From NCBI GenBank assembly GCA_002163155.1, contig MAAO01000008.1, forward strand, positions 248,001-312,000: a stretch of 64,000 bases of DNA, given 5' to 3'. The number at the start of each line of letters is the position of its first letter. Position 1 is the stretch's first letter. The position numbers and the translations under genes were made by a program. Below are positions 37,093 to 45,894 of this stretch, piece by piece. The notes below the pieces were generated by a model, which saw only the letters and a program-made list of their open reading frames with translations, was not told the origin of the DNA and searched no databases. This DNA is from Halobacteriovorax marinus (GTDB lineage: Bacteria; Bdellovibrionota; Bacteriovoracia; Bacteriovoracales; Bacteriovoracaceae).

Positions 37093-39576
37093 ATGAACAA
37101 AAATATATTACTTGTCGAAAATCGTGCTAAGCAAATGATTGTGACTTCTTTAAACCTAAATATCTATTTAGATTCAGAAGTACAAATCGTTAGTAGTTTT
37201 GATGAATTTATTGAGGCCATAAATTTTAATAGTAATATTGATCTAATTATTAGTAGAGACAGTTTCAATGACACACTTATTTCAGATGAAATAAAAAAAG
37301 AACTTGAAACAAATTCCCTATCAATTCCCCACTTAGTTTTAGGAAGTGCAAAGGAACATATTCTTCTAGATGACAAATTAGTCATCAGACCATTGTTGAA
37401 GGAGTCTGCACGAGTATTAAGTCTCACTCCACAAATGATGGCCCAAAAGGATTTCGGGGAATACTTTGAACTACCCTCTACACTCGTACATTTCATAAAT
37501 TATGCACCTTGCGATATCTTTGTAACAGAGAATGGAATCCACTTTCAGCAAGCTTACACTAGAAGAGAACAAGTCAGTCATGAAGTAAAAATTGATATGG
37601 CCGTATGTCCTTCTATGTTTGTTCGCTCCAATGAACGTTTAGAATTTGTGAACTCTTTAACAGAACAAAATCGAGAGGACTATCTTGATTCAAATGTTGT
37701 TAATGAACGTTTCCAAAAAGAAGTCGAAAGAATTAACAAAGATATGGATACTGTTTCTAATCTCTTAACCTGTGGTGTAGATAGTGAAAAAGTAAATGAA
37801 ATTGCAGTAAAGGCTGTCAAATCAATGATTGCCTTAGCTGATGAAGATATTGTTGTAAAAGACTTAATCAATAGATTAAATGAATCAGACTCTAACTTTC
37901 GTTATAAACACTCACAGCTCATTACCTTTATCGGGTTACAAGTCCTAAAACAATTAGAAAGAAGTGATCAAGACCTAGAGGATTTTGCGAGTGCAGCTTT
38001 CTTCCACGACATCTGTATAAAAGACGATGAAATAGCTTCGGTAAGAAGTAATAAATCACTCTTGATGAATGACTTTAGTATCGTTGAAATGGATCAAATT
38101 AGAAATCATGCACTTGATGCGAATACGATTCTTAAAAGATTAAATAGTGTAAATGAAAAGACTATGGATATTATTACGCAGCACCACGGGAGTACTGATG
38201 GTCAAGGGTTTAGCGATTCATTAAAAGGAATAACTTATCTTTCCAAGGCCTTTGTAATAACAGAACACTGGGTTCATATTCAACTCTTTGAAGATCAAAC
38301 AGACCCAAGAGATTTAAGTCAATTTCAAAAAGTTTTTCTAAAATTATATCCAGGAAAATCTCAGCAGGAGTTTATTAAAACTCTCTTTCAATTAGAATCT
38401 AAAGAGCTAATTTCGGGAGTCACAGAGGATCTAACCCAAGAGTTAATCAATATAAAAGGTGCCTACGAAATAGATGAACACATTAGTTTAGTTAAAGGCC
38501 TAGCTGAAGAAGAAGATACATCCTCTACAAAAATATCTGGTGTTACTGACCATATCAAGGAAGAGTCAAAACTTGTAAAAGGAAGCGACGAAACAGATGA
38601 AGATAAGTCAATCACCCACATCAAAGGTGAAACAGAAGAAGATAAATCTACTACAGTCATCAAGGGTGAAGCAAAGGATTTAAAAGAAGAAAATTATATT
38701 ATAAATGGTAATAAAGAAAAGTCTAAAGAGAATCTATCCAAAACCATTGAAAAGAATATTTCTGAAGACGTCGCAGTTGTAGATAATACGCCAAAAATAA
38801 ACGGTGAGATTTTAATAAATGCCTATATTTCAAAACGCAAAGAACTAAAAGAAGAAGTTGGAGGAGACTGGGCCTTTTCTAAGTTCCTCTCTACTTTAAT
38901 GACTTTTGACAACCCTCTATCTTCTAGCCCATTCACAGAAAAAATTAATTCAATTGGATTACAACTTAAAGAATGCTTAGAGGATAATAGTGAGCTAGAT
39001 TCTTTTACAGCTCAAATCAAAGAACTCCGAAATGACATTAAAAATAAATTTGAAGAAGAAATAACTAATACTATTGATAATAGAGATAAGTCAGGGCGAA
39101 CTAAGCTCATGATTGCAATTACTACTTCAAATATTGAACTATACAACTACATCTTAAAGTTTAATCCAGATTTTAAATTAACAGATAGCACTGGAAAGTC
39201 CGCTCTTCATTTCTCATGTATAAGTGGTAATTTAGAAATTCTTGAAAGTGTGTACGAGAAAAATACTAGTGCTCTTAACAAGTCAGATAGTAAAAAAAGG
39301 ACCGCTCTATTCTATGCCGTTAATAGTGATAATTTAGAGTTTGTTCAATTTCTAATAAAGGTCGGCTCACGTCCTAGAATGGTGGCAGATAACGGTATTT
39401 CTCCTTGTATGATGGCGTGCCATAACGGAAATAAAGAAATACTAGAGGCCCTTGTAGCAAATGGAGAACCTTTAGATGCTGTTGATAGTAAATACAAAGG
39501 ATGTTATCAATATGCTAAACAGAAGAAACATAAACATATTCTTTCTTATTTGAAGGCGAAAGGAATTGATAAGTAA
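37093..39576 (+). CDS. Degenerate receiver + degenerate HD-GYP + '[IV]KG' repeat linker + ankyrin repeat protein
   Basis: N-term ILLVENRAKQMIV; FFHDICI, HALDANTIL, QHHGSTDGQGF; C-term ankyrins (SGRTKLMIAI, GKSALHFSCISGNLEIL, KRTALFYAV). Confidence 0.75.
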   Translation: MNKNILLVENRAKQMIVTSLNLNIYLDSEVQIVSSFDEFIEAINFNSNIDLIISRDSFNDTLISDEIKKELETNSLSIPHLVLGSAKEHILLDDKLVIRPLLKESARVLSLTPQMMAQKDFGEYFELPSTLVHFINYAPCDIFVTENGIHFQQAYTRREQVSHEVKIDMAVCPSMFVRSNERLEFVNSLTEQNREDYLDSNVVNERFQKEVERINKDMDTVSNLLTCGVDSEKVNEIAVKAVKSMIALADEDIVVKDLINRLNESDSNFRYKHSQLITFIGLQVLKQLERSDQDLEDFASAAFFHDICIKDDEIASVRSNKSLLMNDFSIVEMDQIRNHALDANTILKRLNSVNEKTMDIITQHHGSTDGQGFSDSLKGITYLSKAFVITEHWVHIQLFEDQTDPRDLSQFQKVFLKLYPGKSQQEFIKTLFQLESKELISGVTEDLTQELINIKGAYEIDEHISLVKGLAEEEDTSSTKISGVTDHIKEESKLVKGSDETDEDKSITHIKGETEEDKSTTVIKGEAKDLKEENYIINGNKEKSKENLSKTIEKNISEDVAVVDNTPKINGEILINAYISKRKELKEEVGGDWAFSKFLSTLMTFDNPLSSSPFTEKINSIGLQLKECLEDNSELDSFTAQIKELRNDIKNKFEEEITNTIDNRDKSGRTKLMIAITTSNIELYNYILKFNPDFKLTDSTGKSALHFSCISGNLEILESVYEKNTSALNKSDSKKRTALFYAVNSDNLEFVQFLIKVGSRPRMVADNGISPCMMACHNGNKEILEALVANGEPLDAVDSKYKGCYQYAKQKKHKHILSYLKAKGIDK
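38437..38712 (+). repeat. Tandem 13-16 aa protein repeat ending in [IVL][KSN]G inside the HD-GYP/ankyrin protein
   Basis: INIKG|AYEIDEHISLVKG|LAEEEDTSSTKISG|VTDHIKEESKLVKG|SDETDEDKSITHIKG|ETEEDKSTTVIKG|EAKDLKEENYIING. Confidence 0.75.
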
Positions 39577-39605: not shown

Positions 39606-39631
39606 GGGAATATGAAAAGAACCATATTCCC
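39606..39631. terminator. Hairpin GGGAATATG-N8-CATATTCCC
   Basis: 9-bp perfect stem between convergent genes. Confidence 0.7.
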
Positions 39632-39639
39632 TTAAAAAA

Positions 39640-40188
39640 TTATTCTAATTCAAGCTCAAGTAAAATGTTTTGAATTGTTGCTTTTGCTCTTTCTGGATTT
39701 GATTCAATATTTACCAAAGTATCAATTAACATAATTCTAAGTCTCTCTTCAGATAACCCTTGAACATAATCATGTCCTTCGACATTCTGATACATTTCTT
39801 CTTCAGAACAAAGATCTGCCACTGAATTTGATGACATTCCTTGTATCCTTGCTATATTAATACAGGCCGCGGTTTCAGATGAAGCATTCTTGCAAGCAAT
39901 TGCCACAGAATTTGAACTCATTCCCTTCGTTCTCGCAATATTTATACAGACTGAAGTATTTGGGGTTGCATTTTTACAAGCAATTCCAACAGACTTAGAG
40001 GACATTCCTTTGATTCTTGCTATATTTATACAAGAAGTTGTGTGTTCTGTTGGACTTGAACAAACAACAGCAACTGACTTTGAAGACATACCTTTAATTC
40101 TAGCAATATTGATACATTGTGCTTTATATCCTGCTGAGATATTTATTGAGATAAATAAGGTAATAATCACAAGTGATAGCTTCTTCAT
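39640..40188 (-). CDS. Secreted protein of four tandem 28-aa Cys repeats
   Basis: Signal peptide then 4x CINIAR[IT][KQ]GMSS[KN]SVxxxC. Confidence 0.8.
   Translation of the reverse strand: MKKLSLVIITLFISINISAGYKAQCINIARIKGMSSKSVAVVCSSPTEHTTSCINIARIKGMSSKSVGIACKNATPNTSVCINIARTKGMSSNSVAIACKNASSETAACINIARIQGMSSNSVADLCSEEEMYQNVEGHDYVQGLSEERLRIMLIDTLVNIESNPERAKATIQNILLELELE
39781..40116 (-). repeat. Four 84-nt (28 codon) tandem repeats encoding CINIARIKGMSSKSV-x3-C-x9
   Basis: Read directly from the translation. Confidence 0.85.
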
Positions 40189-40622
40189 TCTTACTCCGGA
40201 TTGTATTGGTTTATTTTTCTATTATAAATATATTCTGATTAATATTACAGAGAGATTGAAGTATCTATAAAGGTGTCCAAAGTTTATACGTCTTATAGCC
40301 GTAGTCAAATTACTCTAAGTGTAGGAAATCTATACAAGTGAGTGTTATAAGGTCTTATATCGACAGAGTTTTTGTAATTTTGATTTAAGTAGTAGTGCTA
40401 AAACTTGACAAATTATGCACCAAAAAGACCCATCTCGGTTCTTGAAATAAATCGTTACTAATTGAATAATGAGGTTACAAAGCCGTTAATAGCAGAGGAT
40501 TTAGAGTGAGAAAAAGGAAGAGTATCTAAATAAATCCTTCATTTAAAGCAACACCTTTCATATATCGAAATCGTAAACCGATTTAGCATTCATAAGTTCT
40601 ATCAAAAAAGAGGAGCTAAGAA

Positions 40623-44091: not shown

Positions 44092-45894
44092 ATGGACGAA
44101 CACTCAACCCTAGACTTTCATTTTACCTGCGAAGAAGAGAACTTTGATTCTCTTCGTGAATACTTCATAGAAGGTATCAATATTGACTGTCAAGATGATG
44201 ATGGCGAGACAGCTCTGTTCAATGCAATAACTAATCAATCCATGCGCATAGCAGACATTCTCCTCTCACTAGGAGCAAATCCAAGCCTTGGAAATACTAA
44301 GAGTGATTACCCTCTACATATTGCTGTAGAAGCTCAGAATATGTACCTAGTGAAACTTCTACTATGGAACGGAGCGAGAAGTATGATCGATGAGAGGAAT
44401 TCCTGTGGAGATACCTGTCTTCGTATAGCTTGTAAGTTAAACAATGATGAGATCGTTCAAATGCTACTCAATTTTGGCGCTAAACCAAATAAGAGTCTAG
44501 AAGAGAAAAATGAATTAGACATGGCCTTTGAACAAGAGAATCAAAGTCTTATCAAAAGTCTTGTCAGTGTCACTGATGTAGAGAGTTTAAATACAAAGAA
44601 TCAATTCGGCGAAGACTATGTTGAGTTAGCAATAAAGCTCAAGGCTCCAGAGCTCATAAAACACCTCATCAAACATGGTTCTAAAATTGATGAGAGCCTC
44701 ATTTCAAAGTTATCAGTAGACAATGAGCAAGATTTCATCGATTCCCTACTCGACATGATAGAGAATGAGCTTGAAGATGAATTCATTGACCAAGAAGATC
44801 AAAAAGTTTATCTCTCAAATTTAAAACAATGGATAGAAGACGAGAACACTTGGGTAAATGGACTCCAAACACTTTCTGAAGAATTGATTAAAATAAAAGG
44901 TATGAAGTGTGAGTTCAAAGAGAAAATTGAAATAGTTAAAGGAAAAGTTGAACTCAACCTCAGTATGATGTCCCTTGAATCTAGAGTTGAACACATTAGA
45001 GATTATATAAGAATAAAAGGAAAACCAATCATAGAAAGTGAAAGTATTGCTATAAAGGTAGCGCAACCTATACCACCCAAGAAAGAGGTACCTGAAGTAA
45101 ACAATGCTAAAGATCAAGTTTCCCTAGATTTTGAGCTGGCACTTAAGGATCAAAATATAGAAAAACTCACAGAGCTGTTAGATAGTAATTTATTACAAAG
45201 AAGTTTTAAAGTTGACGCCAATACGCCTGCGCTACTCTACGCTTCTACTACAAACAATCTTCAACTATTTCACCTACTTTTTAGAAATAAAGTCTACAAC
45301 AATCAACTTAAAGAATTAAAGTACTGCTGGAAAATTGCAAAGAAGCACGAAAATCAAAACATCGTGGCCTATTTAAAAATTTTAGGTTTTCCCGATCCTC
45401 CTCTTGCAAAAAGCGGCAAAAATGTAGATCCAAAGAATGAGCTCTTCTTAGCCTGCAAACTCAATGATGTGGAATTTCTCGAAGAGAAATTAGAAGAGGG
45501 TCTAAACCTCGATGGTTTTTACAACCATGAAACTCTGCTCACTCTAGCAGGCAGATCCGGAGCAGAAAATTGCCTAAAATACATATTAGCAAATGGTGGC
45601 AAAGTTAATTTAAAAAATGAAAAGGATGAGACCGCTCTCTTTACAGCTGTCCTAAAAGAGAGTCCGCAGTGTGTTGATATACTCATTGCTGCAGGAGCGA
45701 AACTAGACTCCTGGAACAAAGGACTTACCCCTCTTATGATGGCAGCGGCGAAAGGTAACAGTAATATCGTCTTTAAACTTCTCACAGCTGGAGCTGATAA
45801 ATCCAAGAAAACTACAAAAGGAATAAGTGCAGAACGAATGGCAAAAGTAAAAGGCCACGAAGAGACAGTACTTTTAATAGAGCGATGGAAATAG
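44092..45894 (+). CDS. Ankyrin repeat protein with central '[IV]KG' linker
   Basis: DGETALFNAITNQSMRIADILLSLGANPSLGN, DYPLHIAVEAQNMYLVKLLLWNGA, TPLMMAAAKGNSNIVFKLLTAGAD. Confidence 0.9.
   Translation: MDEHSTLDFHFTCEEENFDSLREYFIEGINIDCQDDDGETALFNAITNQSMRIADILLSLGANPSLGNTKSDYPLHIAVEAQNMYLVKLLLWNGARSMIDERNSCGDTCLRIACKLNNDEIVQMLLNFGAKPNKSLEEKNELDMAFEQENQSLIKSLVSVTDVESLNTKNQFGEDYVELAIKLKAPELIKHLIKHGSKIDESLISKLSVDNEQDFIDSLLDMIENELEDEFIDQEDQKVYLSNLKQWIEDENTWVNGLQTLSEELIKIKGMKCEFKEKIEIVKGKVELNLSMMSLESRVEHIRDYIRIKGKPIIESESIAIKVAQPIPPKKEVPEVNNAKDQVSLDFELALKDQNIEKLTELLDSNLLQRSFKVDANTPALLYASTTNNLQLFHLLFRNKVYNNQLKELKYCWKIAKKHENQNIVAYLKILGFPDPPLAKSGKNVDPKNELFLACKLNDVEFLEEKLEEGLNLDGFYNHETLLTLAGRSGAENCLKYILANGGKVNLKNEKDETALFTAVLKESPQCVDILIAAGAKLDSWNKGLTPLMMAAAKGNSNIVFKLLTAGADKSKKTTKGISAERMAKVKGHEETVLLIERWK

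Follow-up and report, generated by a model that had tools for sequence, protein, structure and literature searches.

A putatively exported protein with four predicted cysteine hairpins in Halobacteriovorax marinus and its apparently undescribed family across Bdellovibrionota

The stretch of DNA analysed here (64,000 nucleotides of Halobacteriovorax marinus contig MAAO01000008.1, hereafter the window) carries a gene for a small repeat protein with eight cysteines (Table 1). A preliminary description of the window had placed an ORF with a signal peptide, four Cys-containing units and a short helical tail at this locus; the ORF is real, and it is the minus strand that encodes it. Its G+C content equals the window average, and the GGAG upstream of the ATG is also kept in a homologue of the same genus (G046). 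The gene is present as a single copy, being the sole match in its genome, and no other convincing C-x17-C array occurs in the window. Its neighbours are an ankyrin-repeat gene on one side and a histidine kinase gene on the other. Two ankyrin-repeat proteins are encoded around it, at 37093-39576 and 44092-45894 (+), and both contain degenerate [IV]KG-containing stretches between their domains; a 39-bp tandem repeat lies within the first of the two genes, at 38590-38670. The convergent ankyrin and repeat genes are separated by an inverted repeat, GGGAATATG/CATATTCCC (39606-39631), with A/T-rich sequence after it. This element resembles a bidirectional terminator and was not reported by the promoter scan, which gave no excess above shuffles.

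Table 1. Features of the repeat gene, in positions of the window
Feature	Position	Strand	Remark
Complete ORF	39640..40188	(-)	182 aa, ATG start; exported (predicted) four-unit Cys-hairpin repeat protein
Shine-Dalgarno GGAG	40194..40197	(-)	5 nt 5' of ATG; read from sequence
Signal peptide, residues 1-19 (MKKLSLVIITLFISINISA)	40132..40188	(-)	by inspection; KD 10-mer 3.1
Unit 1 core CINIARIKGMSSKSVAVVC, residues 25-43	40060..40116	(-)	
Unit 2 core CINIARIKGMSSKSVGIAC, residues 53-71	39976..40032	(-)	
Unit 3 core CINIARTKGMSSNSVAIAC, residues 81-99	39892..39948	(-)	
Unit 4 core CINIARIQGMSSNSVADLC, residues 109-127	39808..39864	(-)	
Acidic helical tail LSEERLR...LELELE, residues 145-182	39643..39756	(-)	conserved; two predicted helices

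The cysteines of the 182-aa protein lie at residues 25, 43, 53, 71, 81, 99, 109 and 127, which gives four C-x17-C units, separated by x9 linkers, and a period of 28; the constant separation of 17 residues described earlier thus holds in every unit. The units had also been called near-identical, which is true of the 19-residue cores (14-16 of 19 residues identical between units) but not of the linkers, which differ. Shifted by 28 residues, the protein matches itself at 54 of 135 positions; none of 100,000 shuffles gave more than 23. At the DNA level, any two cores share 70-79% of their bases, and among the 14-16 codons per pair that specify the same residue, 7-9 are synonymous variants. A recent DNA duplication or a sequencing artefact was considered as the origin of the repeat and rejected, since synonymous codons differ widely. 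With about half of the identical codons being synonymous variants, the repeat is old and maintained by selection at the protein level.

Export of the protein by the Sec pathway is well supported by prediction. The signal-peptide-like start, recognised by inspection, reads MKKLSLVIITLFISINISA followed by G, and an N-terminal helix predicted at residues 2-31 in the AlphaFold2 model of the full protein spans it. That model, built on an alignment of five sequences with a one-column slip around unit 2, has a pLDDT above 90 across units 1-3. The repeat domain alone is modelled as eight helices forming four hairpins (mean pLDDT 95.0, pTM 0.85), and a helical-hairpin fold is well supported by this prediction. 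Within a unit, helix A carries the first cysteine at approximately its fourth position, and the second lies where helix B ends. Each unit would form a hairpin of about 28 residues (a helix of 10, a turn of 4, a helix of 8 and a linker of about 7), and the four hairpins would stack into a short alpha-solenoid. The short helical tail of the earlier account is borne out by helices predicted at 147-159 and 165-178, which may form a second small helical domain, with a tail pLDDT of only about 60-72. Fold searches with the full model and with the repeat domain returned no PDB or viral-model fold at E <0.001.

Each hairpin would be stapled by a disulfide between the cysteine of helix A and that of helix B (i, i+18). 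The turn of a unit lies midway between its two cysteines, which would, by residue count, therefore be level across the hairpin. Furthermore, in arrays without an extra cysteine, pairing within units uses all cysteines, whereas pairing across the linkers leaves the first and the last unpaired. Both arrangements are geometrically conceivable and we favour the one within units, although the ninth cysteine found in GPFS-type relatives is also compatible with pairing between units. The genome encodes two DsbB homologues above the Pfam cut-off (G000:C11:166583-166954 and G000:C7:147272-147640), so that oxidative folding is possible in this organism. Of the exported, disulfide-stapled helical array proposed in the preliminary description, the hairpins (predicted at a pLDDT of 95) and the signal peptide (by inspection) stand, while the disulfides are what we infer. 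Dozens of relatives with arrays made up of complete C-x16/17-C pairs also fit this proposal. An exported protein with eight conserved cysteines might instead bind metal ions or serve as an oxidisable thiol store. We hold this to be very unlikely: the spacings of 17 and 9 do not resemble those of common metal motifs, C-x2-C for instance, DsbB is present, and no conserved His/Asp lies close to the cysteines. The metal binder proposed earlier is not favoured on this last ground.

The repeat had previously not been recognised, and it indeed matches no characterised family: none in Pfam, NCBIfam or PADLOC scored above threshold, PHROG matches were sub-threshold only, and PDB sequence searches with protein and profile queries gave no match. 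It is nonetheless part of a family found across the phylum. When 129 genomes from the same taxonomic family were searched directly, one clear homologue emerged, that of G046 (51-53% identity; four units and a tail, like the window protein), together with weak relatives, and a profile built from these found matches in 27 of 125 genomes of Bacteriovoracaceae. Genome-wide profile searches covered Bdellovibrionota, the phylum of the window, where a three-unit profile of diverse members detected exported arrays of 3-10 C-x15..23-C units in 64 of 369 genomes at E <1e-4, representing 38 of 182 genera. Matches driven by composition were considered and rejected, because a reversed profile with the same composition and Cys spacing found a match in only one of the 369 genomes. 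That one match (E 6e-10) is to the window gene, for which spacing and composition alone therefore supply part of the score. To guard against circularity, only the window pair was set against only the GPFS-type sequences with hhalign, and the two aligned across all four units into the tail (E 2.9e-6, probability 88%); with a mixed collection of further Bdellovibrionota members, the match was weak (probability 23%). Among 84,980 species genomes, no named close relative of the window protein was found, and there are five named GPFS-type relatives, four labelled Bacteriovoracaceae/Bacteriovorax and one Proteobacteria. The named relatives, for the most part Bacteriovoracaceae MAGs, place the window organism in this family and, by its taxonomy, in Bdellovibrionota. 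The alignments suggest that the window repeat belongs to a phylum-wide, apparently undescribed family of exported hairpin arrays.

Collection by spacing pattern yielded 66 array ORFs, near-duplicates and truncated frames among them. These contain 3-10 units, with a within-unit Cys spacing of mostly 16-20 and linkers of mostly 7-12 residues; the Cys pairs are complete, no further cysteine lies within a unit or linker, and 63 of the 66 have a hydrophobic N-terminal stretch. Taking an export signal and, after it, three or more C-x15..23-C units with linkers of 6-16 residues as the definition of these hairpin arrays, the window protein is one of them. The GPFS, LCSGAxSxAPxxC and GxGFxxC types of Bdellovibrionota share with it the export signal, C-x17-C units and often a C-terminal helical tail, and the linkers of the C-x16/17-C arrays (7-12) are comparable to its x9. 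They differ from it in core sequence (about 20-25% identity), in often having a ninth cysteine and in their wider range of unit number. In the GPFS type, this ninth cysteine is located near the N-terminus and precedes unit 1 by about the length of a linker; in most such relatives (L037-L041, L073-L083) it is conserved within RHSCTP or EYLCT and is a candidate for covalent dimerisation. No name or function was found for the C-x16/17-C arrays of Bdellovibrionota in family libraries or the open-access literature and, judged from these sources, the repeat appears undescribed.

Several relatives bear the array on other exported parts. The N-termini of L106, L109 and L119 are lipobox-like and mark these proteins, by inspection, as lipoproteins. 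L032 contains a phytase-like domain (E 1.6e-37); the reading frame L032:832-3246 encodes a secreted protein with a phytase-like propeller, whose N-terminus carries seven Cys-hairpin-like units. L066 and L068 match the N_methyl pilin motif weakly, below the Pfam cut-off, and in these proteins (L067 being related) the pilin-like N-terminal methylation motif is followed by five C-x18-C hairpin units. The pilin-like array gene in G040 adjoins a gamma-glutamyltranspeptidase gene.

The repeat gene is a stand-alone gene. No conserved neighbour or operon partner was found in G046 or at the eight loci of relatives with gene lists read: the G046 homologue adjoins glycosyltransferase-like and membrane-protein genes (named by inspection), and the GPFS genes have a new neighbourhood at each locus. 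Plasmid carriage of the gene was not found. Genes that stand alone, a unit count that varies among relatives and the putative lipoproteins among them are also what a structural spacer or envelope filler would show, that is, a stiff, stable rod without a specific ligand, free or lipid-anchored, in which the repeat number sets the length. Such a role is possible but unlikely, as spacers rarely keep a tail that is 76% identical, and both species of the window subfamily have exactly four units, with cores altered in concert.

This pattern of change comes from the comparison with G046. The tail is identical at 29 of 38 positions (76%), and a tail search found only the G046 homologue and a weak match at E 0.03. 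The core identity is 0.79 within a protein, 0.51 between orthologous units and 0.50 between non-orthologous units, and at 7 of the 19 core positions all four units of the window protein differ from all four of G046. For GPFS-type and other pairs, similarity is mostly higher at the orthologous unit. Positional ancestry of the units is indicated mainly by linker 3 (7/9 positional identity, which the other linkers do not keep), by equal numbers of units and by the tail common to both proteins. From this one species pair, the data are suggestive of cores that changed in concert within the window subfamily, through gene conversion older than synonymous drift, re-amplification or parallel selection. 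The MSS loop between the helices is invariant across units and both species. This constancy bears on an array of exported Cys-rich inhibitors (e.g. of proteases), one per unit, that would shield the predator or blunt prey enzymes. Many known inhibitors are of this small, exported, Cys-paired and repeated type, and a Kunitz match was found in L025. However, the match is weak, spans 13 residues and lies below the cut-off, inhibitor loops are usually variable rather than constant, and the modelled units stack instead of forming separate knots. An inhibitor, as had been proposed earlier, is therefore not favoured, and we consider it quite improbable.

Predatory Bdellovibrionota export many proteins without an assigned role. 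The window organism is probably predatory, going by its family, and it is lineage that would link the repeat protein to predation. The product would be a Sec-exported, soluble protein of the periplasm or surface, in which the stapled solenoid may serve as a binding scaffold that remains stable under harsh conditions, be it in the envelope, the outside or the prey periplasm. The uniform repeated face of the four units would contact a partner, and the acidic C-terminal tail would dock on another partner or on the basic groove, whether in the same molecule or in a neighbour. The net charge of the array is +9 and that of the tail -9 in the window protein (+3 and -6 in G046), and the C-terminal tails of HcpC and c5321 contact the superhelical groove of a neighbouring molecule in crystals (PMC3851747); docking of the tail into the groove, in cis or in trans, is thereby plausible. 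Cores altered jointly beside a conserved tail are what would be expected if the units share one kind of ligand while the tail keeps a conserved one. We put the chances of an alpha-solenoid binding scaffold at the periplasm or surface, with intra-unit disulfides and the conserved tail as a docking element, at about even. In its favour, relatives carry the array on a phytase-like propeller, a pilin-like motif and lipobox-like N-termini. Against it, neither a ligand nor a partner gene was found, no operon is conserved, the neighbours differ in every relative examined, and the array charge is not conserved, ranging from -5 to +4 in the GPFS relatives. The binding role, the tail docking and any link to predation are likewise inferences. 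In a broader and rather unlikely version, stapled hairpin solenoids are a lineage-specific toolbox with which predators grip ligands of prey or envelope, the cores of an array being re-tuned jointly when the ligand changes and the tail partner fixed.

Recurring in at least 38 genera but without an entry in Pfam or NCBIfam, the putatively stapled hairpin unit is a module with directly testable structure and partners, and the concerted change of four cores in the window's genus provides a handle on their contacts. Small, stable and modular, the unit could interest designers of disulfide-stapled repeat proteins.

Known repeat proteins resemble the array in part. The Hcp (HcpB/HcpC) and Sel1-like repeats are exported helix-turn-helix arrays that form a superhelix with regularly placed disulfides, features which are predicted or probable here. 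However, the Sel1-like unit is 36-38 aa long and Hcp disulfides run from the end of a repeat to the beginning of the following one (PMC3851747), whereas the window repeat has 28-aa units with C-x17-C. The Pfam Sel1 model gave no match to the window protein at E up to 10, nor to relatives at up to 1 or 0.01, and the fold search of the window model against the PDB gave no significant match. The TALE and BurrH (BAT) proteins, short helical hairpins arranged in a superhelix, are the best topological matches in the fold search (BurrH: TMq 0.61, probability 0.96, E 0.4; a TALE: TMq 0.60, E 5.1), although neither E-value is significant. TALEs are not known to have Cys staples and act in the cytosol or nucleus, and TALE/BurrH arrays bind DNA via variable residues of the inter-helix loop. 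The window protein has Cys pairs and a signal peptide and no TAL effector Pfam match. A TALE/BurrH-like superhelix that binds DNA outside the predator, for example in prey, would agree with these topologies and with a basic repeat domain beside an acidic tail, but is exceedingly improbable, since the protein is exported, the arrays of relatives are often neutral or acidic and the invariance of the MSS loop argues against a base-reading code. The twin CX9C (CHCH) proteins are Cys-stapled helical hairpins of an oxidising compartment, and the x9 spacing occurs in both. In CHCH proteins, both CX9C motifs lie within helices, whereas in the window protein x9 spans the linker between predicted hairpins and x17 the hairpin itself; CHCH/twin CX9C models gave no match above the cut-off, a weak UPF0203 match to L003 lying below it. 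Identity with Sel1/Hcp, TALE or CHCH proteins was rejected on unit length, sequence and Cys placement. With a repeat that itself appears undescribed, the protein resembles a known kind, the disulfide-stapled helical repeat proteins.
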